49,517 nucleotides of DNA from Gammaproteobacteria bacterium (GTDB lineage Bacteria > Pseudomonadota > Gammaproteobacteria > S012-40), in contig JAOUHV010000015.1 in NCBI GenBank assembly GCA_029884425.1, positions 1-49,517 on the forward strand, written 5' to 3'. The notes under the pieces were generated by a model, which was not told where the DNA came from, did not search any database, and saw nothing but the letters and a program-made list of their open reading frames with translations. This document shows, one piece after another, positions 20,786-38,068 of this stretch. Every line of letters starts with the position of its first letter. The stretch's first letter is position 1. Made by a program: the position numbers and the translations under genes.

Positions 20786-21088
20786 GATCATTCCCTCATA
20801 TGGAGTGGCGAAAAAGAACATAGTATTTCCATCAAATATACATCGGTCTGTGTGGAAAGTTTCTGCAGCTAATAGACGATAAGCTGTTTGAACTGTTTTA
20901 TATTAGATGATATTAATATAGTTTTTAACTAGGTATTAATACTTTCTATTCGTGGCCGCTAGCGGGGTTGCCGCTATAGATAGCAACCGGTAGCATCTCG
21001 CAAATAAATTTGGTTGCAGACAAAGTGTGTTTTGTCGACTAGGTTTTTAGAGATTGGCGACGATATAAAATTTTCGAGGAATGGAACC
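20786..21088. other. AT-rich divergent intergenic region between the small gene and tusA
   Basis: About 300 bases with no coding frame of interest; composition is markedly more AT-rich than neighbouring genes. It separates the leftward bepA side from the rightward sulfur cluster, so promoters for both directions should be here. Confidence 0.6.
20888..20916 (+). promoter_or_regulatory. Candidate sigma-70-like promoter of the tusA–sHdr cluster
   Basis: TTGAAC and TATTAA are separated by 17 bases, each matching 4 of 6 consensus positions, within the AT-rich gap upstream of tusA. No operator or regulator gene (such as an ArsR-type repressor) is visible in the window, so regulation is unknown. 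Confidence 0.3.
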
Positions 21089-21319
21089 ATGGCTAACTTT
21101 GATCAAGAATTGGACGCATCGGGTTTGAATTGTCCGCTGCCAATTTTGCGTGCAAAAAAAGCACTGTCAGCGCTGTCTTCGGGACAGGTTTTGCATGTGA
21201 TTGCTACCGATCCTGGTGCATTGAAGGATTTCGAAGCGTTTGCCAAGCAGACTGGCAATCAGCTGATTGAGGCTAAGGAGAATGGCGGCAAGTTTTACTT
21301 TCTCATCAAAAAGTCGTAA
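21089..21319 (+). CDS. tusA: TusA sulfurtransferase
   Basis: A 76-residue cytoplasmic sulfur carrier. The active cysteine is in the canonical LNCPLPILRAKKAL motif (CPxP; about residues 15-28), and the C-terminal FYFLIKKS is typical. In sulfur oxidizers TusA accepts sulfane sulfur as persulfide and passes it on to DsrE-type proteins. The start at 21089 has GAGGA about 8 bases upstream; an upstream in-frame start at 21014 would add an unconserved 25 residues. It heads the co-directional sulfur cluster. Confidence 0.95.
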   Translation: MANFDQELDASGLNCPLPILRAKKALSALSSGQVLHVIATDPGALKDFEAFAKQTGNQLIEAKENGGKFYFLIKKS

Positions 21320-21382: not shown

Positions 21383-21850
21383 ATGTCAGAGAAAAAATTA
21401 GCCATTATCGCTACCAAGGGCACGTTGGACTGGGGGTATCCGCCCTTCATTCTGGCGTCGACTGCGGCAGCGTTAGGTTATCAGGTACAGATTTTCTTCA
21501 CGTTTTACGGCTTGCAGCTGCTGAAGAAAGACTTGGATCTGAAAATGAGCTCGCTGGGTAATCCCGCGATGCCCATGCCCATGCCTGTGCCAGTTCTGAT
21601 GCAGGCAATGCCGGGTATGGAGGCGATGATGACCTCCATGATGAAGGCAAAAATGAAGAAAAAGGGCGTAGCCGATCTGGCCGAATTGCGCGAGTTGTGT
21701 CTAGAGGCGGAAGTAAAATTCATCGCCTGCCAGATGACGGTTGATCTGTTCGAGTTCAGCCACAGCGAACTGCTGGATGGTGTTGAGTACGGCGGTGCGG
21801 CCACGTTCTTTGAGTTCGCTGGCGAATCTGACGTCAGTTTGTATATGTGA
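21383..21850 (+). CDS. DsrE/DsrF-like sulfur carrier protein (DsrE3 type)
   Basis: A 155-residue member of the DsrE/DsrF/DrsH-like (COG2210-type) family. N-terminal KLAIIATKGTLDWGYPPFILAS, a Met/Pro-rich loop at residues 55-95, and FIACQMTVDLF with the likely sulfur-binding cysteine at about residue 112 support this. In sHdr-containing oxidizers DsrE3 proteins exchange sulfur with TusA upstream of the sHdr complex. It is 64 bases after tusA and 124 bases before hdrC1, in the standard tusA–dsrE–sHdr order. Exact DsrE3 subtype is not certain. Confidence 0.9.
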   Translation: MSEKKLAIIATKGTLDWGYPPFILASTAAALGYQVQIFFTFYGLQLLKKDLDLKMSSLGNPAMPMPMPVPVLMQAMPGMEAMMTSMMKAKMKKKGVADLAELRELCLEAEVKFIACQMTVDLFEFSHSELLDGVEYGGAATFFEFAGESDVSLYM

Positions 21851-21973
21851 TTAAGAGAAAGGGTGCATTGCGCCCTTTTTCTTTGCCACCTATATTAAAA
21901 TATAACAATATGATTGTGGATGTTATGTGAGCTAAGCTTACGAGGGTGAGCTTAAACGAAGAGGGTGCTGGAC

Positions 21974-22669
21974 ATGGCGACTTATGCAGAAATGCAGGAA
22001 ATCTTCGAAGATATTCGCAGTGATTTTCGTTACGAGCACGAGCTAAACGGCTGTTTAAATTGTGGGATTTGTACTGCCACTTGTCCTTCGGCGCAGTTCT
22101 ACGATTACTCCCCCCGCGAAATCGTCCAGTTGCTCTGGACCGAAAACGTGGATCAGATTTACGACGCCATGCAGGAGAAAATTTGGGCCTGTGCTCAATG
22201 CATGACTTGTGCGGCGCGTTGTCCGTTTAAAAACTCCCCTGGTGGTCTGGTGGCCATCATGCGCGAAGTGGCAATCAAACACGGCATGGACTCTGCCAAA
22301 GAAGTGTTGCGTCCTTTTGGTCGTGTCATGCTTAAGCTGATTACTACGGGTAATCAATTGTCACCCGACATGATACAGCCTGATCATTTTCCCGATTGGG
22401 GCCCCAATATTCAAAAAGTCGAAGGTAATCTGAAAACCTTGCGCAAGGCTATTCCGGTCAAAACGTTGCAGACAACAGATACCGCCTGGGAAGTGAGTTT
22501 AAAAACCTCGGTTGAAATGTACACCATTTGGGAAATGACAGGCGTTTTGACTCAACTGGAAACCATGGACGAGAACCTCTTTGACGTTATCGAAGATTTC
22601 ATCGATGAGAAAAAAGAGGAATACGATGACTGGTTGGAAGAACAGGAAGACAAAGACGACGATGATTGA
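21974..22669 (+). CDS. hdrC1: sHdrC1, iron-sulfur subunit of sulfur-oxidizing heterodisulfide reductase-like complex
   Basis: A 231-residue soluble ferredoxin-type subunit. Two [4Fe-4S] motifs are seen: CLNCGICTATCP (Cys27/30/33/37) and CAQCMTCAARCP (Cys73/76/79/83). The C-terminus is acidic and Lys/Asp-rich. HdrC subunits transfer electrons between HdrA flavin and HdrB. The ATG at 21974 is preferred (GAGGG 8 bases upstream); the in-frame GTG at 21965 overlaps that box. The gene begins the hdrC1-B1-A-hyp-C2-B2 order that distinguishes the sulfur-oxidizing sHdr complex from methanogen Hdr. Confidence 0.93.
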   Translation: MATYAEMQEIFEDIRSDFRYEHELNGCLNCGICTATCPSAQFYDYSPREIVQLLWTENVDQIYDAMQEKIWACAQCMTCAARCPFKNSPGGLVAIMREVAIKHGMDSAKEVLRPFGRVMLKLITTGNQLSPDMIQPDHFPDWGPNIQKVEGNLKTLRKAIPVKTLQTTDTAWEVSLKTSVEMYTIWEMTGVLTQLETMDENLFDVIEDFIDEKKEEYDDWLEEQEDKDDDD

Positions 22670-22707
22670 TCATCGGCAATTTTAACTCCAGTTGGAGGTC
22701 GCGACTT

Positions 22708-24111
22708 ATGAGTAATGATCACAAACCCGGACATCACAACACGTCCTCCCAGGGGGCAGGTCCCGGCACCATGAAGCCTGGTTTTCACAACACCGATGGT
22801 CAAGGGGTTGCGGGACATGGTTCGTTTTTCCAGCAGACCAATCTGTCGGAAGCGGATGCTATCGCCGCCACTGATTGGGTTCGCAAGCATGTGGACAAGC
22901 GCAGCATTGATCTGGGCGAACGCATGGATGATGTGCGCGAGCACATGTGGCACCTGGAAAAAGAAGGCGAGATTATTGTTCATCGCATCACCGATGATCA
23001 TAAACCGATCATGACCAAAACGCTGTTTGGTTGGGACAAGAAAATTCCCACCACCCAGTTATGGCATCACAAATCCTGTGGTCAGTGCGGCAACATTCCT
23101 GGCTATCCCACGTCGCTGATGTGGTTCATGAATAAGTTTGGCTATGTGCCGGGCAAGGATTACCTGGACGAAACCGATCAGACCTCATGCACGGCCTGGA
23201 ATTATCACGGTTCGGGCATTGGTAATGTGGAATCGTTGGCGGCGGTATTCCTTCGCAACTTCCATCAAGCCTATGTTTCGGGCAAACAGCATGGCCACGG
23301 TGCTGGGCACTTTTATCCCTTGGTGCATTGCGGAACATCGTTTGGTAACTACAAAGAAATTCGCAAATATCTGATCGAATCGCCACAGTTGCGCGAGAAA
23401 GTGAAAAAAATTCTCGGCAAGCTTGGACGCTTGGTGGATGGAAAACTGGTTATTCCCGAGGAAATCATTCACTACTCTGAATGGGTGCATGTGATGCGCA
23501 ATCGCATGGCCAACGAGCTACAGACCATCGATATTTCAAACTTGCGCGTGACAGTACATGCGGCATGTCACTATTACAAAATGGTTCACGAAGACGCGAT
23601 TTATGATCCGACTGTTCTGGGCGGTAATCGTGCTGCGCCAGGAACCTCGGTAGCGCAAGCCCTAGGTGCGCAAGTGATCGATTATTCCACCTGGTATGAC
23701 TGCTGCGGTTTTGGTTTCCGCCACATTATTTCCGAGCGCGAGTTCACTCGTTCATTCACGATGGATCGCAAAATCCGCGTGGCGCGTGAAGAGGCCAATG
23801 CCGACGTGATGCTGGGTATCGACACCGGCTGTATTACCACCATGGATAAAAATCAGTGGATCGGTCAGGCTCACGGTCAAAACTTCAGTATGCCTATCAT
23901 GGCGGATGTACAGTTGGCGGCGCTGGCTTGTGGCGCTGACCCCTTCAAGATTGTCCAGTTGCAATGGCACGCTTCTCCCTGTGAAGAAGTTGTTGAAAAA
24001 ATGGGCATCAGTTGGGCTGACGCGAAGAAGAGCTTCCAGGCTTACCTCAAAGAGGTTGAGGCAGGAAAAATTGAGTATTTATACGATCCAAAACTGGCAG
24101 TGGGGGGTTAA
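22708..24111 (+). CDS. hdrB1: sHdrB1, CCG-domain subunit
   Basis: A 467-residue protein of the HdrB/CCG-domain family. Cysteine regions are CGQCGNIPGYP, SCTAWNYHGSG, HAACHYYKMVHEDA and DCCGFGFRH, which in Hdr proteins hold noncubane iron-sulfur clusters at the active site. The first domain reads SCTAW where HdrB has CC, while the second CCG motif is intact. The N-terminal 35 residues are Gly/His-rich with a short repeat (KPGHHNT and KPGFHNT). The start at 22708 has GGAGG upstream; a frame extension to 22666 overlaps hdrC1 and lacks a ribosome-binding site. Confidence 0.92.
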   Translation: MSNDHKPGHHNTSSQGAGPGTMKPGFHNTDGQGVAGHGSFFQQTNLSEADAIAATDWVRKHVDKRSIDLGERMDDVREHMWHLEKEGEIIVHRITDDHKPIMTKTLFGWDKKIPTTQLWHHKSCGQCGNIPGYPTSLMWFMNKFGYVPGKDYLDETDQTSCTAWNYHGSGIGNVESLAAVFLRNFHQAYVSGKQHGHGAGHFYPLVHCGTSFGNYKEIRKYLIESPQLREKVKKILGKLGRLVDGKLVIPEEIIHYSEWVHVMRNRMANELQTIDISNLRVTVHAACHYYKMVHEDAIYDPTVLGGNRAAPGTSVAQALGAQVIDYSTWYDCCGFGFRHIISEREFTRSFTMDRKIRVAREEANADVMLGIDTGCITTMDKNQWIGQAHGQNFSMPIMADVQLAALACGADPFKIVQLQWHASPCEEVVEKMGISWADAKKSFQAYLKEVEAGKIEYLYDPKLAVGG

Positions 24112-24117
24112 ACGAAC

Positions 24118-25146
24118 ATGACGGACACAGTACTAATCGTTGGCGGCGGACCCGCTGGTCTTTCCGCTGCAGCTGGGGTTTCTGCCGCAGGTAAAAAAGC
24201 GATACTGGTGGAAAAGGAAGATCGCTTGGGCGGTGCGCCGATTTTGTCGGGGTACGCCAAGCTGGTGCCTTCTGGCGAATGGGCCAAGGATGCTATTGGT
24301 CGCATGGTCAGCGCCGTTGAAGGCGACAAAAATATTACGGTAAACAAAGGTGTCAAAATCACCAAGCTGGACGGAGACGTGGGGAATTTTAGTGCCACGC
24401 TGTCCAATGGCTCAACGGTGAAAGCCGCGTCAGTGGTGCTGGCAACGGGATTCACTCATTTTGATTCCATCAACAAACCCGAATGGGGTTTTGGCACTTT
24501 CCCTGATGTGGTAACGACCACCCAGGTGGAGCAAATGGTGGGTGCTGGCAAGGTCGTCTGTCCGTCCGATGGGCGCGTGCCGCAGCGCGTGGCGATTTTG
24601 CTTTGTGTGGGTTCACGTGACCGCCAGATTGGGCGCGAGTGGTGTTCGAAAATTTGTTGTACGGTGTCCGCTAACCTGGCGATGGAAATTCGCGAGATGT
24701 CACCGCAGACCGAAGTGTTCATCTACTACATGGATATTCGCACCTTCGGTTTGTACGAAGACAAGTTTTACTGGCAGTCGCAGGAAGAATTCAAAGTCAA
24801 ATACGTCAAGGCGCGTATCGCTGAAGTCACCAAGTCGCCCGATGGTCGCTTGCTGGTGAAAGGCGAGGACACGCTGGTGAAACGCCCTATCGTGATTCCA
24901 TTTGATCTGGTGGTGCATGCGGTGGGCATGGACCCCAACGAAGACAATCCGGAAATTTCTCGGGCGTTTGGCGTTAATTTGGAAAAACATGGTTACATCG
25001 AGCGCTCTGAGCACTACACCAATACGTGCGGGACATCGCGCAAAGGTGTTTATTCTTGTGGCTCAGCGTATGGTCCAGAGACTATCGATGATTCCATTTC
25101 GCAGGGCAAGGCTGCGGCTTTGCGTGCTATTTCGCACCTAAAATAA
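24118..25146 (+). CDS. hdrA: sHdrA, FAD- and Fe-S-binding subunit
   Basis: A 342-residue flavoprotein, much shorter than methanogen HdrA. The FAD-binding Rossmann motif is VLIVGGGPAGLSAAAG (residues 5-20), followed by a flavin-contact EKEDRLGG. The middle contains LCVGSRDRQIGREWCSKICC (cluster ligands typical of sHdrA), and the C-terminus contains GVYSCGSAYGPETIDDSI. In the sHdr complex it is thought to be the electron-bifurcating or transfer core. It sits 6 bases after hdrB1 and 9 bases before the hyp gene. Confidence 0.93.
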   Translation: MTDTVLIVGGGPAGLSAAAGVSAAGKKAILVEKEDRLGGAPILSGYAKLVPSGEWAKDAIGRMVSAVEGDKNITVNKGVKITKLDGDVGNFSATLSNGSTVKAASVVLATGFTHFDSINKPEWGFGTFPDVVTTTQVEQMVGAGKVVCPSDGRVPQRVAILLCVGSRDRQIGREWCSKICCTVSANLAMEIREMSPQTEVFIYYMDIRTFGLYEDKFYWQSQEEFKVKYVKARIAEVTKSPDGRLLVKGEDTLVKRPIVIPFDLVVHAVGMDPNEDNPEISRAFGVNLEKHGYIERSEHYTNTCGTSRKGVYSCGSAYGPETIDDSISQGKAAALRAISHLK

Positions 25147-25155
25147 CGAGGCGAT

Positions 25156-25989
25156 ATGCTCTGGTTTAAACGCGAACCTTTGCAGCGAGTTGATCACCTT
25201 GAGCCCGCTGAGCTCAGGGTGTCATTTGATGCGGGAATTCTCGAATCCAAACTGGAGCGACTGTTGGATGCAACGGCGGAGCGTGGCGGCATCGATGTTT
25301 TTCTTGATGCGTTGCGCGGCAAGCAAACGCTTTTTACCGAAGCATTGCGAACCGATGTCTTGTTGCAGATGGATGCCCAGTCTTTTCAGGCGGTGCTGGA
25401 TACGGTGTTTCCCGCACGTCGCCGATTGGGTGATGTCGTTTCTTCGTTGTCGATGGATGACTGGCGTCAGCGAACCGAGTTGCTGCTTCGCGGCAAGCAG
25501 TCGTTAAGCGAACGATTGGATAACTTTGTTTCCGTGGCGGCGGCCAGCAATAAAAAACAGCAGCGAGCACTGTGGGATTTTGCGGTGGAACTAGTTCATT
25601 TTAATGATCCTGAGCACTACCCGCTGATGACTCGCTGGATTTGGGATGCAAAGACCCAGAGCGGTTCATTGCGCGAGTTTATTCGCGCCAATGACACGAT
25701 GCAAACGGTGGACATGGGTGTTGCTCCTGAAGATTTTGAGGCAGCCAGGCTCTGGATAATTGGGCAACTGAGTGAAAAGGGTTTCTACCGTGATTTGCCA
25801 TTGCTGGTGGATCTGGTGAAGGCCCAGGCTTATGCGGATTACGTGCTGGCCATGTCCAGTGGCATGGGCATGATGGGCTCGGAGTTTGGCGGGCGAATGG
25901 AGCCGCTGGATTTTGTGGTGAAACTGTTAGGTATAGAACCGGCGAGGAACGGCGGTCGGTCGCGTCTAAAGGCGGCTACTGTCCATTAA
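25156..25989 (+). CDS. sHdr-associated protein of unknown function (Hyp)
   Basis: A 277-residue soluble protein in the fixed slot between hdrA and hdrC2 that is occupied by a 'hyp' gene in bacterial sHdr clusters. It is helix-rich with no cysteines forming clusters and no signal or membrane segment. Notable are SLSERLDNFVSVAAASNKKQ and the C-terminal AMSSGMGMMGSEFGG. I recognise no domain. Position between essential subunits suggests a structural or assembly role in the complex; this is inference only. Confidence 0.85.
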   Translation: MLWFKREPLQRVDHLEPAELRVSFDAGILESKLERLLDATAERGGIDVFLDALRGKQTLFTEALRTDVLLQMDAQSFQAVLDTVFPARRRLGDVVSSLSMDDWRQRTELLLRGKQSLSERLDNFVSVAAASNKKQQRALWDFAVELVHFNDPEHYPLMTRWIWDAKTQSGSLREFIRANDTMQTVDMGVAPEDFEAARLWIIGQLSEKGFYRDLPLLVDLVKAQAYADYVLAMSSGMGMMGSEFGGRMEPLDFVVKLLGIEPARNGGRSRLKAATVH

Positions 25990-26016
25990 CACGTTTGAGG
26001 AAAGACGGAGAGAACC

Positions 26017-26733
26017 ATGGCTATCCATGAAAAATCGCTGATTGATGCTGACCGATTAAAGACTGCCGAATCACTGGTGATAGATGGCGTGGACGTGTCT
26101 GGTCACTGGAATACAATGATTACGCCGCGCACCCTCCGCGATTACGATGAGCATTTTGAAAAAACGATCATGAAGTACGGCGGTGGTGATTACGTCTACC
26201 GCTGCTGGCAGTGTGGTTCCTGTACCAACTCTTGTACGATGTATGCGCAGAACGTTAACTTTAATCCTCGCTACTGGATTTACCTCACTCGCCTTGGTTT
26301 AAAGGATGAGTTGATCAAGGACAAAGACATTATTTGGCAATGCGTATCCTGTAACAAATGCACCAATATTTGTCCCAAGGATGTTAAGCCAGAGGGTGTG
26401 ATGAAGGCGCTGGCGCACTGGATGGAAGAGGAAGGCATTACTGAAAAAACGCCGTCCACCAAATTTGATGAAGAATTTTGGGATCAGATTTCGGCACGTG
26501 GTCGGATAGAGGATAGCGCGGTACTACAAAATTTCTTCAAGAAAACCGGGCAAAGTTTGACGCAGGACTGGCTGGTGGAAATGATCAAACGCATGATTAA
26601 GCATCTGCCACTGAAACACTTGATTCGTTCCGGCATGAATACAGTGTTTCATCCGAAAACCAAGTCCTGGGGTAAAACGGGTGATGTGCTAAAAGAATAT
26701 GTGAAGCAGCAGAAGGAGGCAGCTCATGGCTAA
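26017..26733 (+). CDS. hdrC2: sHdrC2, iron-sulfur subunit
   Basis: A 238-residue protein with two ferredoxin-like [4Fe-4S] motifs: CWQCGSCTNSCT (Cys63/66/69/73) and CVSCNKCTNICP (Cys109/112/115/119). It differs from HdrC1 in sequence but has the same cluster spacing, as expected for the second HdrC. GGAAAGACGGAGAG precedes the ATG. It overlaps hdrB2 by 8 bases, implying translational coupling of the C2-B2 pair. Confidence 0.93.
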   Translation: MAIHEKSLIDADRLKTAESLVIDGVDVSGHWNTMITPRTLRDYDEHFEKTIMKYGGGDYVYRCWQCGSCTNSCTMYAQNVNFNPRYWIYLTRLGLKDELIKDKDIIWQCVSCNKCTNICPKDVKPEGVMKALAHWMEEEGITEKTPSTKFDEEFWDQISARGRIEDSAVLQNFFKKTGQSLTQDWLVEMIKRMIKHLPLKHLIRSGMNTVFHPKTKSWGKTGDVLKEYVKQQKEAAHG

Positions 26734-27637
26734 GGTGGCGTATTATCCTGGTTGTGCGCTGGAAGGCAGTGGTGGTCCGTATGATCGCTCGACACGAGCC
26801 ATTGTGGGCGCACTGAATCTGCAGATGGAAAATTTGCGCGACTACAATTGCTGTGGCGCGATGGAAGTTAAAAACGTTCACCCGATGCTGCAGACGTATT
26901 TGTCTGCGCGCAACTTGGCGATTGCCGCCGAGCAAATGGGGTTGGATACGGTGATGGCGCCGTGCAACGGCTGTTATCACAATTTGAAAAAAGCGGAATA
27001 CGAGTTGGCAACCTCCAGCGATTCCTTGGCAACGGTGCAGGATTTGGCGAAGAAGGCAGATGATCCTGTCTACAACGGCAATGTGCGCACCGTGCACCTG
27101 TTGGAGTGGTTGATGGAAGAAGTGGGCGTGGACGGCATCAAGGAGCGCATTAGCAAAAATCTGCAAGGCATCAAGATTGCGAACTACTATGGGTGCATGT
27201 ACACACGTCCGCGTCAGATTTATCCAGAAAAAGATAAAGGCCCTGGTTCCGAGTCCACCTACAAGCCGCACTTTATGGACGATTTGCTGGGTGCGGCGGG
27301 TGCGCAAAATGTCGATTTCCCGCTGAAAACGGCCTGCTGTGGTGGCGCGCACACCTTGTCCGACGCGGATACCTCTACGCAGCTGGTGCTTAATCTGCTG
27401 CAGGCGGCGGAAGACTGTGGTGCCGAGGTGATTGCGACCGAGTGCCCGACCTGCCATTCTGGTCTGGAAATGCACCAGGTGCGTGCTGAAAAAGTATTCG
27501 GTATCAAGACAAATGTAAAAATCATCTATTTCACCCAGCTGTTGGGCTTGGCTTTGGGCTTATCTCCCCGTAAGCTCGGTATACATGAGAACATCAGCGA
27601 CTCGATCGATTTTCTAAAACAAAAAGGCGTGATTTAA
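26726..27637 (+). CDS. hdrB2: sHdrB2, CCG-domain subunit
   Basis: A 303-residue HdrB-type protein with two CCG domains: YYPGCALEGSG and NCCGAMEVKN in the first, and YYGCMYTRP with TACCGGAHTLSD in the second, followed by CPTCHSGLE. These ligands bind the noncubane clusters at the heterodisulfide/sulfur-substrate site. Unlike HdrB1 both CCG motifs are intact. It overlaps hdrC2 by 8 bases and is the last complex subunit before the lipoate-binding protein genes. Confidence 0.93.
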   Translation: MAKVAYYPGCALEGSGGPYDRSTRAIVGALNLQMENLRDYNCCGAMEVKNVHPMLQTYLSARNLAIAAEQMGLDTVMAPCNGCYHNLKKAEYELATSSDSLATVQDLAKKADDPVYNGNVRTVHLLEWLMEEVGVDGIKERISKNLQGIKIANYYGCMYTRPRQIYPEKDKGPGSESTYKPHFMDDLLGAAGAQNVDFPLKTACCGGAHTLSDADTSTQLVLNLLQAAEDCGAEVIATECPTCHSGLEMHQVRAEKVFGIKTNVKIIYFTQLLGLALGLSPRKLGIHENISDSIDFLKQKGVI

Positions 27638-27684: not shown

Positions 27685-28125
27685 ATGACCTGTAACGGCT
27701 GCGAGTTTCATCCAGAGCTGTATTACGATAAAGATTTTCAGATTTGGATGGCGCAGGATGCTGACGGTTGCCTGAGGGTGGGAATGACCGATATCTCCCA
27801 AACCATCGCAGGTCGAATTTTGCATGTGCGGGTACGCAAACCCGGCACGCAGCGCACTGCGGGCAAGCCCATTGCGACGCTAGAGAGTGGAAAGTGGGCG
27901 GGTCCTGTCCCCAATCTGATTGACTGTGTTATCGAAGAGGGAAATCTGGCGGTTTTGCAAAAACCTGCGCTTCTGAATCAGGATCCCTTTGGTGCCTGGA
28001 TTGCGAGGGTTCGACCAGCCGATCCCTCTGCCGATGTCTTTGCGCTGTTTGTGACGGGCGAGGAAGCGCAGCGCGGCTATTGCCTGCGAGCGCAGCGCGA
28101 AAATATTCATTGTGAGCGGAAATAA
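27685..28125 (+). CDS. lbpA: Lipoate-binding protein LbpA (GcvH-like), first copy
   Basis: A 146-residue GcvH-like carrier. The lipoylated lysine is expected in TLESGKWAGPVP (Lys70), the ESGKW version characteristic of sHdr-associated LbpA rather than the glycine-cleavage protein. The N-terminus has an unusual CxxC (Cys3 and Cys6). The lipoyl arm is thought to bring sulfur intermediates to and from the sHdr complex. It is 47 bases after hdrB2 with the hairpin between, and directly precedes a dsrE-like gene (3 bases apart). The second lbpA is about 470 bases further on. Confidence 0.92.
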   Translation: MTCNGCEFHPELYYDKDFQIWMAQDADGCLRVGMTDISQTIAGRILHVRVRKPGTQRTAGKPIATLESGKWAGPVPNLIDCVIEEGNLAVLQKPALLNQDPFGAWIARVRPADPSADVFALFVTGEEAQRGYCLRAQRENIHCERK

Positions 28126-28128
28126 AGA

Positions 28129-28527
28129 GTGAATCCTGATCACTATTTGGACAATGACGAGCAAACTGTTCTGATCATCATGACTAGCGGCCCCAGCACA
28201 CCGAAGCGTTGCGCGACGCCCTTCTTTCTGGGTTCTATCCTGGCGGCAATGGATGCTGATGTGAAGATTTTTTTCACTATGGAAGCGGTGAATTTGCTGA
28301 AAAAGGGTGTGGCCGAGAACCTGGTGGCGATGGAAGGCGGCAAGGTGATTATCGATTTCATTCGGGAATCCAAGCAGGCAGGCGTTAAACTGGTCTGTTG
28401 TTTGCCAGCGTTGCCAGGTTATGAAATCGATCCGGAAAAAGATCTGATTGACGAAGTGGATGACGTGGTTGGCGGCGGCGCACTGGCTGATTTGATCCTG
28501 AGTTCGGATAAGGTAATATCGTTTTAG
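28129..28527 (+). CDS. DsrE/DsrF-like family protein between the two lbpA genes
   Basis: A 132-residue protein of the DsrE/DsrF-like fold. VLIIMTSGPSTPKRCATPFF and DADVKIFFTMEAVNLLKKG near the N-terminus are typical, with candidate reactive cysteines in PKRCATP and VCCLPALPGYE. It is distinct from the DsrE3 protein after tusA (no Met-rich loop). The GTG start lies 3 bases after lbpA, so the two are probably co-translated. It may shuttle sulfur between the carriers and LbpA or support lipoyl sulfur insertion; role not shown. Confidence 0.88.
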   Translation: MNPDHYLDNDEQTVLIIMTSGPSTPKRCATPFFLGSILAAMDADVKIFFTMEAVNLLKKGVAENLVAMEGGKVIIDFIRESKQAGVKLVCCLPALPGYEIDPEKDLIDEVDDVVGGGALADLILSSDKVISF

Positions 28528-28597: not shown

Positions 28598-29038
28598 ATG
28601 GGTGATGTGCGCGGCTGTAAAATTCCAGACGATCTGAGCTACAGCGTTGATAACAACGTGTGGGTGCGCAAAGAGGCAGACGGCAACGTCACTGTTGGTA
28701 TGACCTCGTATGCGGCATCGCTGGCAGGACAAATCGTCTCTTACACGCCTAAAAAAGTGGGCAAGGATGTCAAAAAAGACAAATCCTGCGCCACGGTGGA
28801 ATCTGGCAAGTGGGTTGGTCCCGCCAAGTCTCCGGTGTCTGGCGAAGTAACTGCGGTCAATGATGCGGTATCTGCCAGTCCAGGCACCATCAATGCTGAT
28901 CCATACGGAGCTGGCTGGTTGGTGAAAATCAAGCCTGAAAACTGGGATGGTGACTCCGCTGATCTGGTAACCGGTGCTGCGGCATTGGCTGCTTTTGAAG
29001 CGAAAATGAACGCCGACGGTTTCGCAGGCTGCAACTGA
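28598..29038 (+). CDS. lbpA: Lipoate-binding protein LbpA (GcvH-like), second copy
   Basis: A 146-residue LbpA with the lipoylation site VESGKWVGPAKSPVSG (Lys71), a better match to typical LbpA than the first copy. N-terminal MGDVRGCKIPDDLSYSVDNN and the C-terminal WLVKIKPENWDGD agree with the GcvH fold. A strong GGGAGG lies 9 bases upstream. It starts the second half of the cluster, which contains the lipoate-assembly genes, and is the likely main partner for them. Confidence 0.93.
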   Translation: MGDVRGCKIPDDLSYSVDNNVWVRKEADGNVTVGMTSYAASLAGQIVSYTPKKVGKDVKKDKSCATVESGKWVGPAKSPVSGEVTAVNDAVSASPGTINADPYGAGWLVKIKPENWDGDSADLVTGAAALAAFEAKMNADGFAGCN

Positions 29039-29155: not shown

Positions 29156-30304
29156 ATGCTGGACTGGTCTGGTGCCATAGAGCGCGTCGAAGCGCTGGAA
29201 GATATTGAGTTCGATCGGAACCTCATTCAGCACATGCAAGACACCTGGGCCGGATTGCAAAATCATGGTCAGGCGCGGGTAAATTTCTATACCCCCAATT
29301 TTAAAAATTACGCCAGCAACGAAATCAGCAGTTGTGGCAGCAGTAGCTGGCCAGCAGTTTCGATTACCGGCAGTGATTGCAAATTGCAGTGTGATCACTG
29401 CAAGGCAAAAATTCTTGAGCCAATGATCCCTGCGCGCACGCCGGAAGATTTATGGCGCGTGGTCAATCAGCAGATTGAGATGGGGGCCGGTGGGATGTTG
29501 TTGACCGGTGGCTCAAATCATCAAAATATTGTCGAATACGACCCTTACTATTCCACCATTCGCCGCATTAAAGACGAGTTTCCTCAATTCAAAATCGCGC
29601 TGCATACCGCGCTGGTGGACGAAGATATCGCGCTGAAAATGGAGCAGTCCGGCATTGATGCCGCGATGATGGATGTGATTGGCGCGCAGGAAACCATTAC
29701 CCAGGTTTATCATTTGAAGCGCAGCGTGGATGATTTTGAACGCACGCTTGAATGTTTGGTCAATAGCAAAATGAAAGTGGTGCCGCACATCGTTGTTGGC
29801 TTGCATTATGGCAAACTGCTGGGTGAATGGAATGCGCTGAGAATGTTGCAGCGCCATGTACCTGATGCGGTGGTGTTGGTGGTGGTCATGCCGCAATACG
29901 CGCCGGCGAAAAAGCCGTTTGCCACACCCAATCCGCATGAAGTAGGACGTTTTTTCATGGATGCACGCGAGGCATTGCCGCAAACGCCGCTGCTGCTGGG
30001 TTGCGCGCGTCCGTCGGGAATTGCCAAAGTACAAATTGATGCCTACGCAGTGATGGCGGGTGTTAGCGGCGTTGCTCATCCGGCGGATGGTGTGGTCGAA
30101 CTGGCTGCGCGTCTGGAGCGAAAAGTCAAAATCACTCCGGCATGCTGTTCAATTGCGGTCGGTGATGAAGTCATGGCAATGCAGGACAACGACGAAAGCT
30201 TGGAACTGGATCTGCAGGAAATCATCGAACATGAACGTCGTAATCGACGTCCCGTTTTTACCCCCAGTGCGGCATTCGCTGGCATTAAGGTCGTTGGCGC
30301 ATAA
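29156..30304 (+). CDS. lipS1: Radical SAM lipoyl synthase component (LipS1-like)
   Basis: A 382-residue radical SAM protein. The cluster motif is CKLQCDHC (Cys75/79/82, CxxxCxxC spacing), preceded by PAVSITGSDC. LLTGGSNHQNIVEYDPYY, HIVVGLHYGK and C-terminal GCARPSG with ACCSIAVG are family-like, with extra cysteines that may bind an auxiliary cluster. In sHdr clusters a pair of such enzymes (LipS1 and LipS2) inserts the two sulfurs into octanoyl-LbpA in a pathway distinct from LipA. Which of the two radical SAM genes is LipS1 is assigned from gene order. AGGG lies upstream of the ATG. Confidence 0.85.
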   Translation: MLDWSGAIERVEALEDIEFDRNLIQHMQDTWAGLQNHGQARVNFYTPNFKNYASNEISSCGSSSWPAVSITGSDCKLQCDHCKAKILEPMIPARTPEDLWRVVNQQIEMGAGGMLLTGGSNHQNIVEYDPYYSTIRRIKDEFPQFKIALHTALVDEDIALKMEQSGIDAAMMDVIGAQETITQVYHLKRSVDDFERTLECLVNSKMKVVPHIVVGLHYGKLLGEWNALRMLQRHVPDAVVLVVVMPQYAPAKKPFATPNPHEVGRFFMDAREALPQTPLLLGCARPSGIAKVQIDAYAVMAGVSGVAHPADGVVELAARLERKVKITPACCSIAVGDEVMAMQDNDESLELDLQEIIEHERRNRRPVFTPSAAFAGIKVVGA

Positions 30305-30322
30305 CCAAGGAGAAAACTGAAC

Positions 30323-31411
30323 ATGAGTCGTAGTGAGAATAAATGGCGCCTGCTGGATACCGGTCTTCGTCGTGCTGCAGAAAACATGGCGATGAATCGT
30401 GCCCTGCTGGAGGGGCATCAACAGGGAGTGACGCCGCATACGCTGCGCTTTCTGCAATTTACGCCTTGTGCGCTGCTGGGATTTCATCAGAGTGCTGAAC
30501 AGGAATTGAAAACAGATTATTGCCAGGCCAATGGCATTGACATTCAACGACGCATGACCGGTGGTGGCGCAATTTATTTTGATCAAACCCAAATCGGCTG
30601 GGAGCTGTATCTCGACAAGAAAGTGCTGGGCACGGCGGATATGGGCGCGATTGCCAAGCGTATTTGTGAGGCTGCTGCACGTGCGATCAGCAAGCTGGGC
30701 GTTGATGCTAAATTCCGTCCGCGCAATGACATCGAAGTGGATGGCAAGAAAATTTCGGGCACTGGCGGCGCGTTTGACGGTGATTCGATTTTGTATCAGG
30801 GCACCTTGTTGCTCGATTTTGATGTGGGCCGCATGATGCGCGTGCTCAATATTCCTGCAGAAAAACTTTCCGACAAAGCTATCGCTTCGGCACAAGAGCG
30901 TGTTGCCAACCTGAAAGACCTGCTTGGCAAACTGCCTGACATGGCGAGCGTCAAGCAAACCATCGCCGCAGAATTTGCGGCAGAGTTTGGTATTGAATTT
31001 GAACCCAGCAGCGAGCTGAATGCCGACGAGGTGAAGCTCTACAATCAGGCGCTGGCGGAAATGGATACGGCGGATTGGGTCTATCAACACAATCGTCCTG
31101 CTGCCGAAGCGCCGACTCTGAGCAGTATTATCAAATTTGATGGAGGCCTGGTACGCACCAATGTGCTGTTGGATGCCAGTAAAAACCGCATCAAACAGGT
31201 CTGGCTGACCGGCGACTTTTTTGTCAAACCGCGTCGATTGGTCGCGGATCTTGAAGCGGCGCTGCGTGACTCGGCGGTAGTGGATTTGCAGCGCAATGTT
31301 GAGACATTTTTTGCAAGCTACGGCGCAGAAATGTTGCTGCTCAAACCGGAAAATTTTGTAACTGCGATCCAGGCTGCGTTGGATACAGTGAATCAGGCGG
31401 AATCAGTCTAG
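30323..31411 (+). CDS. Lipoate–protein ligase dedicated to LbpA (sLpl(AB)-like)
   Basis: A 362-residue lipoate/octanoate protein ligase. The substrate loop is RRMTGGGAIYF (about residues 76-86), the adenylate lysine and neighbours are GKKISGTGG (141-149), and ILYQGTLLLD follows. The C-terminal part resembles an LplB-type accessory domain fused to the catalytic LplA domain. It would attach octanoate or lipoate to LbpA. It is 18 bases after the radical SAM gene with AAGGAGA upstream, and its stop overlaps the GTG of the next gene by one base. Confidence 0.9.
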   Translation: MSRSENKWRLLDTGLRRAAENMAMNRALLEGHQQGVTPHTLRFLQFTPCALLGFHQSAEQELKTDYCQANGIDIQRRMTGGGAIYFDQTQIGWELYLDKKVLGTADMGAIAKRICEAAARAISKLGVDAKFRPRNDIEVDGKKISGTGGAFDGDSILYQGTLLLDFDVGRMMRVLNIPAEKLSDKAIASAQERVANLKDLLGKLPDMASVKQTIAAEFAAEFGIEFEPSSELNADEVKLYNQALAEMDTADWVYQHNRPAAEAPTLSSIIKFDGGLVRTNVLLDASKNRIKQVWLTGDFFVKPRRLVADLEAALRDSAVVDLQRNVETFFASYGAEMLLLKPENFVTAIQAALDTVNQAESV

Positions 31412-32493
31412 TGAACGTCGATGTACTGGTCATCGGCTTGGGGCCGGCAGGCGGACGCGCTGCGGCGGTGGCTGCTCGTGCCGGCTTGAGCGTGTTGGCG
31501 GTGGAGAAAAAACGCCAGCTCGGCGTGCCGGTGCAGTGCGCTGAATTTGTGCCGCTGCCCATGAGTCGTTTGGCCAGCAGTGAACCGGTGCGGGTGCAAA
31601 CCATCAGCGGAATGAAAAGTTTTTTACCCTCCGGCGAGGTTGATCAAACTGCTTTTCCTGGCTTGATGATTAACCGCGACGAATTTGATGCCGCCATTGC
31701 GCGTGATGCCCAAGCGGTTGGCGCGCAGATCTGGTTGCAGTCGCGTTTGCAGACGCTGGATGCTGCGCGTCGCGTTGCAACGATTGTCACCCCTGAGGGC
31801 GAGCAGCAGGTTCACTACAAATTGCTGGTGGCTGCGGATGGTCCTCATTCTGCGGTTGCCAGGCAGTTGGGCTTGGCAGAATTGCAGACGGTAAACACGC
31901 GACAGTACAGCGTTGATTTGCTGCAACCATTTACGGATACCGATATCTGGTTGAGTGATGATTTTCCCGGTGGCTATGGCTGGTTGTTTCCCAAGGGAAA
32001 TAAAGCCAACCTGGGCATGGGGTCGGACAAACGTTTCGGCGAGGATTTGAAAACGCCGCTGGATCGACTGCATCGTGTGTTGATCGAAAGTGGTCGGGTT
32101 GGCGCCACTATTCATGGACGCACTGGCGGATCGATTCCGGTAGGCGGGTTACGTCAATCACTGGTGGTTGGGGATGTGATGTTTGTCGGTGATGCCGGTG
32201 GCTTTACCCATCCCATTACCGGTGCAGGAATTTCTGCGGCCGTGCTCAGTGGCGAGGCAGCGGGGCAGGCCGCCGTGGATTATTTGCAGGGCGATCGCGA
32301 TGCCCTGCAGGATTATCAGGACGAAATGCGCGACCAGTATCAGGACACACTGCAGCGTGCGGTGAACCGTCGCAAGGAATTGCTGACAGTGTGGCATACG
32401 CCGGCGGCGCAGCGTGATGATGTCATGCGTCGTGGCTGGATTGCATTTGATGAATATTTTTTCGAGCCGCAGCAGCAGGCTGTGGCCGTTTAA
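31411..32493 (+). CDS. lipT: FAD-dependent oxidoreductase of the geranylgeranyl-reductase type (LipT-like)
   Basis: A 360-residue FAD protein. The dinucleotide motif is VLVIGLGPAGGRAAAVAARA (residues 5-24), QCAEFVP carries a cysteine near residue 38, and the second FAD motif VMFVGDAGGFTHPITGAGIS lies in the C-terminal half. This matches the geranylgeranyl reductase-like family. In sHdr-linked lipoate clusters such a gene (LipT) sits between the ligase and the second radical SAM gene; an electron-transfer or redox role for lipoyl synthesis is suggested but not proven. GTG start overlapping the ligase stop. Confidence 0.85.
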   Translation: MNVDVLVIGLGPAGGRAAAVAARAGLSVLAVEKKRQLGVPVQCAEFVPLPMSRLASSEPVRVQTISGMKSFLPSGEVDQTAFPGLMINRDEFDAAIARDAQAVGAQIWLQSRLQTLDAARRVATIVTPEGEQQVHYKLLVAADGPHSAVARQLGLAELQTVNTRQYSVDLLQPFTDTDIWLSDDFPGGYGWLFPKGNKANLGMGSDKRFGEDLKTPLDRLHRVLIESGRVGATIHGRTGGSIPVGGLRQSLVVGDVMFVGDAGGFTHPITGAGISAAVLSGEAAGQAAVDYLQGDRDALQDYQDEMRDQYQDTLQRAVNRRKELLTVWHTPAAQRDDVMRRGWIAFDEYFFEPQQQAVAV

Positions 32494-32508
32494 CAGAGGA
32501 AGCGGAAG

Positions 32509-33651
32509 ATGAGCGTCACCAAAGAAGCGATGACAGTGCCGTTGAATTTTTACAAACCGGATTACTATGTCAAAACCCCGAAAATGCGCTCGCCCGACTA
32601 TGTGCAGATGTCGACTGCCGCAGCCATTACGCTGGGACTGGTGGAAGGTGCGATGCATCGCACTTCGTGTACTCACTGTTTGAATTTGTTGGTGACTTAT
32701 CCCGAAGGTTGTCGCGCCAACTGCAGTTATTGCGGCCTGGCGCGCCACCGCGAAGAGTCGCGCGATTACGCCGATCGCAATTTCATTCGTGTTGACTGGC
32801 CGACCGCGCGTTACGATGACGTGATTGAAAAGGTCAAGGCCGGCAAGGATAAAGCGGCCTTCGAGCGCATGTGTATTTCCATGATCACCCATCCGAACTC
32901 TGATGATGACACCATGGTGTTGTTGAAAAAATGGGTGAAGGAAGTGCCACACGTACCTGTGTCCATTCTTTCCAATCCGACCACCATGAGCTACGACGAT
33001 CTGGTCGCGCTGCGTGATGCTGGCGCTGATATTTTTACCGTAGCGCTGGATGCGGTGACGCCGAACATTTTTGAACGTACCCGAGGCAAGACCGTTGACA
33101 GTCCGCATACCTGGGAAAAGTATTGGCAGGCGATTGAGTGGGCGGCAGAAATTTTTGGCCCGGAAAAATTTGGTGCGCATCTGATTTGTGGCATGGGCGA
33201 GACTGAACAGGAAATGCTGCAGGTTTGTCAGAAAATCCGCGATATGGGTGGTCACAATCACATGTTTGCGTTCTTCCCCGAGCGTGGTTCGATGATGGAA
33301 GACTGGGCTGCGGTGTCGCGTGATCAGTGGCGTCGTGTGCAGCTGGGCCGCTATCTGATCGATTATGCCGGCGGACACGTCGACAATATGAAATTCAATG
33401 CTGAAGGCCAGGTGATCGACTTTGGCATGCCGCAGGCCGAGTTGGAAGCGCTGATTGCCACCGGCAAACCTTTCCAAACTTCAGGATGTCCAGGCAAGGA
33501 AGATGATGTTTCTGCCTGCAATCGTCCGTATGGCGATTCCACTCCCACTGACATCTTGTCATTCCCGTTTGCGCTCAATGCCCGCGATGTAGGTGTGGTA
33601 CGGCGGCAGATGGCCGGTGAAAATGTGGGTACCTATCACGACGAAGATTAA
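32509..33651 (+). CDS. lipS2: Radical SAM lipoyl synthase component (LipS2-like)
   Basis: A 380-residue radical SAM enzyme with cluster motif CRANCSYC (Cys68/72/75) preceded by extra cysteines in SCTHCLNL (54, 57) that may bind a second, sulfur-donating cluster. FAFFPERGSMMEDW and SGCPGKEDDVSACNRP are notable segments. It resembles biotin-synthase-type proteins. Together with the upstream radical SAM gene it would convert octanoyl-LbpA to lipoyl-LbpA. It is the last gene of the co-directional cluster and is followed after 25 bases by a strong terminator. LipS2 naming rests on order. Confidence 0.85.
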   Translation: MSVTKEAMTVPLNFYKPDYYVKTPKMRSPDYVQMSTAAAITLGLVEGAMHRTSCTHCLNLLVTYPEGCRANCSYCGLARHREESRDYADRNFIRVDWPTARYDDVIEKVKAGKDKAAFERMCISMITHPNSDDDTMVLLKKWVKEVPHVPVSILSNPTTMSYDDLVALRDAGADIFTVALDAVTPNIFERTRGKTVDSPHTWEKYWQAIEWAAEIFGPEKFGAHLICGMGETEQEMLQVCQKIRDMGGHNHMFAFFPERGSMMEDWAAVSRDQWRRVQLGRYLIDYAGGHVDNMKFNAEGQVIDFGMPQAELEALIATGKPFQTSGCPGKEDDVSACNRPYGDSTPTDILSFPFALNARDVGVVRRQMAGENVGTYHDED

Positions 33652-33676: not shown

Positions 33677-33705
33677 AAAGCCTCCTTTCGGAGGCTTTTT
33701 TATTT
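33677..33705 (+). terminator. Terminator of the sHdr–lipoate cluster
   Basis: AAAGCCTCC-TTTC-GGAGGCTTTTTT forms a 9-bp stem with a tetraloop and T-run, 25 bases after the last lip gene. A clear rho-independent terminator. Confidence 0.9.
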
Positions 33706-33906: not shown

Positions 33907-35397
33907 ATGAAACGACTGAATCAAAAAACAGCATTGGCGGCAGCGATGGCAATGGTTTTCAGTGCGCCAGCCTTGGCAACCAATGGCATGAATATGGAAG
34001 GCTATGGGCCGATTGCTACCAGTATGGGTGGGGCATCCATGGCATATGATAACGGAACTGCGGCGGTGATGAATAATCCGGCAACGTTATCAATGATGAA
34101 CAGTGAGCATCGTTTTGATGTTGCGGTTGGTGTACTTGGTCCACGTGTTGATGCGACCGTGGATGCTGGTGCAATGACCATGACCAGTGATTCCACTGGC
34201 CGTTCCTACATGATGCCAGCCATGGGCTGGGCGAAAAAATCAGGAACGCTGATCTATGGTGTAGGTGTTTTTGCTCAAGGTGGTATGGGTACCGAGTTTG
34301 GTTCCAATTCCTGGATGGCTGATCCCAGCATGGGCACCAATACTGCGTTGACCGCAGGTTTGGTGAATCGCTCTGAAGTCAGTGTAGGGCGTGCGATTTT
34401 GCCACTTTCATTCAGCGTCAATGATAGCTTGAGTGTGGCAGCGACCCTGGATTATGTCTGGGCCGGTATGGATTTACAGATGGCCATGAGCGAAGCGCAG
34501 TTCCAGGATCTGGCCAATCCAGCGGCCCAGAATATTGGTGAGGCATCTGGAACATTGGTGCAGGGTTTTGGCCTGATGTATGAACCATTTGGCGGAACCG
34601 GCGTACAGAAATTGCACCATGCCTATTTTGATTTTTCCAATGACGACAAATATTCCGGCAAGGCACAGGCGACCGGCTACGGCGGCAAGATTGGTTTGGC
34701 CTACAAGATCAATCGCAAATTAAATGTAGGTGCGACATATCATGCCAAAACCAGTCTCAGCGACATGACTACCTCTGATGCGGTGATGAGCATGGGGGTA
34801 CTTGCGGACACTGGAGTGATGTCAGGCGGTGCGCCGTCGGGCACCTATGTGGACATGAATATTCCTGTGAGTGGTAAAATCACCGTCAAGAATTTCCAGT
34901 GGCCTGCAACCTATGCGTTTGGTGCTGCTTATCAGGCCAGCGACAAGCTGATGGTGGTGGCAGATGTGAAGCAAATCGCCTGGTCAGACGTGATGAAAGA
35001 TTTCAGCATGTCCTTTGAGGCAGACAATGTTGCAGCCAATGGTGGTTTTGCGGGCGCGAAAATGGATATGGCGCTGTATCAAAACTGGGATGACCAAACC
35101 GTGATTTCCTTGGGCGGTGCGTATCAGGTGAAAAATGATCTGGTGCTGCGTGCTGGTTACAACCATGCAAACAACCCTGTGCCAGAAAAATACCTCAACG
35201 CGCTGTTTCCAGCGATTGTTGAATCACATCTGACACTGGGTTTGGGCATGGGTAGTGGTGCACAGCAAGTGGATTTGTCTTTCACCAAGGCGCTGAATGT
35301 GGAATCCACTAACCCAGGCAATGGCAGCACCATTCCTGCGGTTACCAGCAGTCACTCACAATTTAGCTGGCAGTTGATGTACAGCTATCGCTATTAG
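33907..35397 (+). CDS. OmpP1/FadL-family outer membrane porin
   Basis: A 496-residue outer-membrane beta-barrel with a signal peptide (cleavage after about residue 24, ALA). The start of the mature part, NGMNMEGYGPIATSMGGAS, and NNPATLSMM are the FadL/OmpP1 N-terminal hatch features. Alternating strands follow, and the protein ends with LMYSYRY (aromatic C-terminus for BAM insertion). FadL-type channels import hydrophobic molecules. Because it follows the sulfur cluster it might take up hydrophobic sulfur compounds, but this is a guess. AGGAGG lies 8 bases upstream; the gap to the upstream terminator points to its own promoter. Confidence 0.93.
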   Translation: MKRLNQKTALAAAMAMVFSAPALATNGMNMEGYGPIATSMGGASMAYDNGTAAVMNNPATLSMMNSEHRFDVAVGVLGPRVDATVDAGAMTMTSDSTGRSYMMPAMGWAKKSGTLIYGVGVFAQGGMGTEFGSNSWMADPSMGTNTALTAGLVNRSEVSVGRAILPLSFSVNDSLSVAATLDYVWAGMDLQMAMSEAQFQDLANPAAQNIGEASGTLVQGFGLMYEPFGGTGVQKLHHAYFDFSNDDKYSGKAQATGYGGKIGLAYKINRKLNVGATYHAKTSLSDMTTSDAVMSMGVLADTGVMSGGAPSGTYVDMNIPVSGKITVKNFQWPATYAFGAAYQASDKLMVVADVKQIAWSDVMKDFSMSFEADNVAANGGFAGAKMDMALYQNWDDQTVISLGGAYQVKNDLVLRAGYNHANNPVPEKYLNALFPAIVESHLTLGLGMGSGAQQVDLSFTKALNVESTNPGNGSTIPAVTSSHSQFSWQLMYSYRY

Positions 35398-37312: not shown

Positions 37313-38068
37313 TCAGCTCAGGATGAGCTTTAGTCCCACCGTCAGCGTGACAACTTCGTAAATCCGCTTGATCCATTTGTTGCCTTTGGCAATGGCCAGG
37401 TGGGCCCCCAAATAGCCGCCAATCAGCGATCCCAGAATCAGCGCCGGCAACCAATCCCAGGCAATGCTGCCCTGCAATCCCAAGGTCACGGCCCCAGTGC
37501 CATTCCAGAATAAACCGACCAGTACCAGCGTATAACTGACGGCGGTTTTGTAATCCAGTCCAAACCAGCGCACTAGCCACAGGGTGACGAACAGGCCGGT
37601 GCCTGAGGTCAGCGAGCCGTTGAGCACGCCGATGAAAAACAGCAGCCCGCCACCAATCAGATAGCCGCGCCGGTCGCGATGTTGTGGCTGGCTGTGCTGA
37701 CCGAGATTGGGTTTGAAAATCGAATACAGCCCCAGGCTGATGGTCAGCACGCCCAGCGCCACCTGGGCGACATGGTCAGGAATGCTGAGGATGATGTTGG
37801 CACCAAGGATCACGCCGGGCAGGCCGCTGGCCAGAATCAGCGAAGCAAATTTCCAGTCCAGGGGTTTTTCCCGCAGGTTGCGCACGGTGGCGCCAATGCC
37901 GAGAAACACACTGGCGACTTTGTGGGTGGCCAGCGCCAGGCTGAATGGCAGGCCGAGGAAAATCAGCGCAGGCAGCTGAATCAGACCGGCACCGCCGCCG
38001 GCAAACGCCGACAACAGGTTGGCCAGCAGCGAAATCAGAAACAGCAGGATTTGATCAAACCAGGACAC
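37313..38068 (-). CDS. TauE/SafE family sulfite/anion exporter
   Basis: A 251-residue integral membrane protein of the TauE/SafE (DUF81) family with about seven to eight hydrophobic segments. The duplicated family motif appears as GGGAGLIQLPAL near residue 24 and GSLTSGTGLFVTLWL in the second half. Members move sulfite, sulfoacetate or related organosulfur anions across the membrane. Proximity to sox and sHdr genes makes export of sulfite from sulfur oxidation plausible, but substrate cannot be read from sequence. It converges on the CheX-like gene with no gap. Confidence 0.88.
   Translation of the reverse strand: MSWFDQILLFLISLLANLLSAFAGGGAGLIQLPALIFLGLPFSLALATHKVASVFLGIGATVRNLREKPLDWKFASLILASGLPGVILGANIILSIPDHVAQVALGVLTISLGLYSIFKPNLGQHSQPQHRDRRGYLIGGGLLFFIGVLNGSLTSGTGLFVTLWLVRWFGLDYKTAVSYTLVLVGLFWNGTGAVTLGLQGSIAWDWLPALILGSLIGGYLGAHLAIAKGNKWIKRIYEVVTLTVGLKLILS

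Follow-up and report, generated by a model that had tools for sequence, protein, structure and literature searches.

The four genes at positions 29156–33651 of the window, i.e., the whole 49,517-nucleotide stretch of gammaproteobacterial DNA that was analyzed, were assigned with a probability of roughly 95% to the published bacterial sLpl(AB)-LipS1/LipS2 operon, which is dedicated to LbpA1 and LbpA2 of the sHdr sulfur-oxidation system. The order lipS1-slpl(AB)-lipT-lipS2 in sulfur oxidizers was described in 2018 and 2023 (eLife 7:e37439; PLoS Biol 21:e3002177). The system, LipT included, is already known, and the window is a good but ordinary example of it. It adds a clean further case of an LbpA-dedicated lipoate route beside the canonical route in one bacterium, together with two testable loose ends, namely, the role of LipT and the reason why proteobacterial LipS2 carries two invariant cysteines beyond those of the archaeal enzyme. 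The initial annotation had suspected a non-canonical lipoate module likely dedicated to LbpA, and by analogy with the published operon this suspicion appears well founded.

Gene content and neighbourhood of the operon

Open reading frame calls and family searches revealed four co-directional forward-strand genes, whose products are LipS1, a lipoate ligase with fused domains, a flavoprotein resembling geranylgeranyl reductases, and LipS2, with shdr-lbpA1-dsrE-lbpA2 directly on the 5′ side (Table 1). The features that mark the operon, namely, LipS1 and LipS2 together, a ligase with catalytic and LplB domains, linkage to shdr and lbpA genes, and LipT, were present, LipT being a frequent rather than a universal criterion. 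The position directly behind lbpA, as initially annotated, was confirmed, and a second lbpA gene was found farther upstream. Both encoded proteins showed the features of LbpA, i.e., a GcvH-like domain, a conserved lysine, and N- and C-terminal cysteines, the latter being absent from GcvH. K70, C6, and C143 of LbpA1 were invariant in 60 sequences, while K71, C7, and C145 of LbpA2 were conserved at 99–100% in 74 sequences.

Table 1. Features of the operon and its surroundings (window positions).
Feature	Position	Strand	Evidence or remark
tusA, sulfur carrier, start of shdr region	21014–21319	+	Pfam TusA, E 7e-24
dsrE-like sulfurtransferase (DrsE_2)	21383–21850	+	Pfam PF13686, E 3e-53
shdr genes: hdrC1, hdrB1, hdrA-like, gene without family name, hdrC2, hdrB2	21965–27637	+	Pfam Fer4, CCG, Pyr_redox_2; same order in relatives
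lbpA1, lipoate-binding protein, lysine in ESGKWAGP	27685–28125	+	Pfam GCV_H, E 5e-26
DsrE-like protein, between lbpA1 and lbpA2	28129–28527	+	Pfam DsrE, E 3e-17
lbpA2, lipoate-binding protein, lysine in ESGKWVGP, C-terminal Cys	28598–29038	+	Pfam GCV_H, E 2e-37
lipS1, radical SAM lipoyl synthase (second sulfur, C6)	29156–30304	+	NCBIfam LipS1, 198.6 bits, E 1.5e-58; invariant cysteines; tree
slpl(AB), LbpA-specific lipoate/octanoate:protein ligase, fused LplB domain	30323–31411	+	Pfam LplA-B_cat; NCBIfam LplB
lipT, FAD oxidoreductase, geranylgeranyl reductase superfamily, GTG start	31411–32493	+	TIGR02032, E 1.2e-57; AlphaFold model
lipS2, radical SAM lipoyl synthase (first sulfur, C8)	32509–33651	+	NCBIfam LipS2, 202.3 bits, E 1.1e-59; conserved cysteines
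Intrinsic-terminator-like hairpin, 9 pairs then T-rich tail	33677–33698	+	25 bases past the lipS2 stop
FadL/OMPP1-family outer-membrane protein, past the terminator	33907–35397	+	Pfam PF03349, E 1.2e-28; adjoins lipS2 in many relatives

Because the nine-pair hairpin and its T-rich tail follow the lipS2 stop, the operon probably ends there, before the FadL-family gene, which is likely the neighbour published as lipY. Within the operon, the stop codon of the ligase gene and the GTG start of lipT share one base (TAGTG at 31409–31413). The one-base overlap noted in the initial annotation is thus real, but it joins genes two and three of the interval, which become genes three and four only when lbpA2 is counted. 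As relatives most often show a 4-base overlap at this junction (30 loci), the overlap was regarded as ordinary translational coupling and rejected as a special feature. Two further genes of the surroundings were recorded. A 277-aa gene at 25156–25989 keeps its position within the shdr cluster across relatives, and its product had no Pfam or NCBIfam match; a gene for a TauE/SafE-type sulfite exporter lies on the reverse strand at 37313–38068, near the sulfur-oxidation cluster.

The arrangement was compared with 80 related loci obtained from a LipS1-seeded scan, which favours close relatives. The order lipS1-lpl-lipT-lipS2 was found in 72 loci, and the other eight, which end early, agreed as far as visible; lbpA2 preceded lipS1 in 74 of the 80. 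Across the phylum, LipS1 was present in 5 of the 299 genomes sampled, this genome included. In Thioalkalivibrio sp. K90mix (TK90_0641–0644; PMC10332631, PMC6067878), gene content, order, and the shdr-lbpA1-dsrE-lbpA2 neighbourhood are the same as in the window, and both have a FadL-like neighbour, published as lipY, a putative fatty acid transporter. The window differs from Thioalkalivibrio only in sequence divergence (about 59–81% identity, measured on proteins other than those of K90mix; approximately 70% for LipS1 and 81% for LipS2) and in the terminator-like hairpin before the FadL gene. The six loci without lbpA2 before lipS1 are metagenome loci labelled Thioalkalivibrio (L079, L085, L091, L107, L108, and L113). 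They carry lipS1-lpl(-lipT-lipS2) and, upstream of it, an opposed, divergent lpl, while the sequence stretch examined contained neither lbpA nor shdr genes.

The radical SAM pair and the ligase

LipS1 and LipS2 were the best curated models for the radical SAM pair, at the scores given in Table 1, and the next best models reached 26 and 47 bits, respectively. Both scores are below the NCBIfam cut-offs of 230 (LipS1) and 270 (LipS2). Since the same shortfall was seen for the LipS1 of Thioalkalivibrio and for all other Pseudomonadota members tested, this reflects the setting of the models, and the low scores were rejected as evidence against membership. A quick maximum-likelihood tree, built with non-archaeal LipS1 and LipS2, separated LipS1, LipS2, and a BioB-type set into three groups with support of 99, 98, and 97, where the BioB-type set contained three rows from weak radical SAM hits that were not individually identified (L010, L013, and L015), and LipA was a very long branch. 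The window LipS2 was closest to that of Thioalkalivibrio. Accordingly, with a lead of more than 150 bits for the LipS1/LipS2 models and separation from BioB in the tree, the grouping with non-lipoate families that the initial annotation had considered was not observed. The PDB contained no relatives of LipS1 or LipS2 at the cut-offs used in single-sequence and profile searches, and a search for plasmid-borne LipS2 relatives returned only one distant radical SAM protein.

The CxxxCxxC motifs and extra cysteines that had been noticed in both proteins were verified as real and conserved, and the motifs are shared with LipS1 and LipS2 of Thermococcus kodakarensis (PMC9585515). In the case of LipS1, C75/C79/C82, C283, C330, and C331 were invariant in 81 sequences. 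Their spacing and the adjoining CC pair match them to C27/C31/C34, C230, C276, and C277 of the T. kodakarensis enzyme, in which C230, C276, and C277 are the ligands of the auxiliary cluster (PMC9585515). In the case of LipS2, C68/C72/C75 together with C122, C327, and C337 were conserved at 99–100%. The auxiliary ligands of T. kodakarensis LipS2 are C85, C276, and C279 (PMC9585515); the comparison was made by spacing only, and the last two cysteines are arranged as Cx9C in the window and as Cx2C in T. kodakarensis.

The proteobacterial LipS2 differs further in a C54xxC57 pair (32668–32679), which precedes the radical SAM motif by ten residues and was invariant in all Pseudomonadota LipS2 examined, including three clusters that belong to other families within the phylum. 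The T. kodakarensis enzyme is without this pair, having only three cysteines outside the radical SAM motif (PMC9585515). A mechanism unlike that of the archaeal enzyme, in which C54xxC57 would form a further metal or persulfide site, e.g., for reloading the auxiliary cluster with sulfur from the shdr carriers, is considered quite improbable. The AlphaFold model of LipS2 was too moderate in confidence (pLDDT 73, low at residues 65–96) for placing C54 and C57 relative to the clusters. In a fold search, the predicted structure matched a broad range of radical SAM enzymes, including lipoyl and biotin synthases.

The fused-domain lipoate ligase of the initial annotation was also recovered, with a catalytic domain (PF21948, E 1.5e-50) followed by a C-terminal LplB-like domain at residues 271–353 (51.6 bits, below the cut-off of 65). 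K143 was invariant in 79 sequences. A second, divergent ligase-like gene that keeps the catalytic-lysine segment was observed on a contig of this genome other than that of the operon (C24, L136:5727–6836, reverse strand), beside ABC1-kinase and ABC-F genes. Divergent ligase genes also occur 4–7.6 kb downstream of lipS1 in about 20 of the 52 relatives with enough flank, e.g., at L052:16633–17673 and L056:17939–18724.

Probable dedication to LbpA beside the canonical route

In the mechanism proposed for the operon, sLpl(AB) would activate free octanoate (or lipoate) with ATP and attach it to K70 of LbpA1 or K71 of LbpA2, after which LipS2 would insert sulfur at C8 and LipS1 at C6. For both synthases, a [4Fe-4S]-SAM cluster is expected together with an auxiliary cluster that serves as the sulfur source, and LipT, as the FAD protein, would most likely supply electrons for the reductive chemistry. 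Ligase specificity and LbpA modification have been shown in relatives (PMC6067878, PMC10332631). The Thioalkalivibrio operon expressed in E. coli modifies LbpA, the product being mercaptooctanoyl-LbpA, with no fully lipoylated form observed in that host (PMC10332631). By analogy, we infer that the window proteins probably do the same job in this organism.

The initial annotation had stated that no LipA or LipB gene is present. This is correct for the locus, where neither radical SAM protein matched the LipA model and the family search did not place sLpl(AB) as LipB, but not for the genome (2.9 Mb, 98% complete), in which searches by protein family located adjacent lipB and lipA genes on contig C13. 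As these genes match their curated models far above cut-off and gcvH lies on the same contig, LbpA might be lipoylated by the canonical enzymes, with the operon serving as a backup or acting on another target. The canonical route would give the same chemical product, although LipA has a Cx4Cx5C auxiliary motif and inserts both sulfurs alone, while LipB uses octanoyl-ACP. Against this explanation, the linkage of the operon to lbpA in the related loci described above speaks for LbpA as the target, the lipoylation machineries of E. coli and B. subtilis leave LbpA unmodified, and deletion of slpl(AB) in Hyphomicrobium results in unmodified LbpA2 (PMC6067878, PMC10332631). Moreover, all eight relative genomes with a strong LipS1 match also carry lipB, and canonical lipoylation enzymes occur in virtually all such organisms (eLife 2018, PMC6067878); the two routes normally exist side by side. 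Lipoylation of LbpA by LipB and LipA is thus barely plausible. Because LbpA is left unmodified by the canonical enzymes of the published work, the lipB-lipA pair found in the rest of the genome does not refute the dedication of the operon to LbpA, which, judged by these relatives, appears to stand.

LipT and its probable role

The geranylgeranyl-reductase-like flavoprotein was correctly recognized at the outset. The initial annotation regarded the LipS1/LipS2 route as known, which it is, and the FAD protein as less settled; its role is indeed still a proposal, but the protein has already been published as LipT. According to the published proposal, LipT passes electrons from NAD(P)H (PMC10332631), and a role as electron donor for the reductive chemistry is the most likely one, as a proposal only. 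The present data neither prove nor exclude electron delivery from NAD(P)H.

Rather than being a general electron donor, LipT may have a reductase-like pocket in which it acts on the acyl chain itself or on a precursor of it, for instance a C8 acyl group that is unsaturated or oxidised, with the ligase and the radical SAM pair working as published. The protein keeps the geranylgeranyl reductase signature, as the cysteine of PVQCAE, invariant in 37 LipT sequences, aligns with that of PVRCGE in the archaeal reductase, with which a GGYxWLFPKG segment was also aligned. The AlphaFold model was confident (pLDDT 90.5), and its fold matched geranylgeranyl reductases best, with 3oz2 as the top PDB hit (E 5e-30); Pfam recognized no separate NAD(P)H-binding domain beyond FAD-type matches. 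However, flavoproteins of this type include electron-transfer members, and FixC (7koe_C) ranked eighth in the same search. A one-contig genome with shdr-lipS1-lipS2-slpl and no lipT hit is at least equally compatible with a replaceable donor. A reductase acting on the acyl chain is therefore regarded as unlikely, and the electron donor is preferred.

LipT at 40% identity or more was found in four of the five LipS1-positive genomes and in none of the 294 others sampled. Five genomes of another family, which are without LipS1, gave LipT matches at 28–32% identity. The fifth LipS1-positive genome, the one with shdr-linked lipS1-lipS2-slpl and no lipT hit (G283, L134), offers a natural experiment on the need for LipT.
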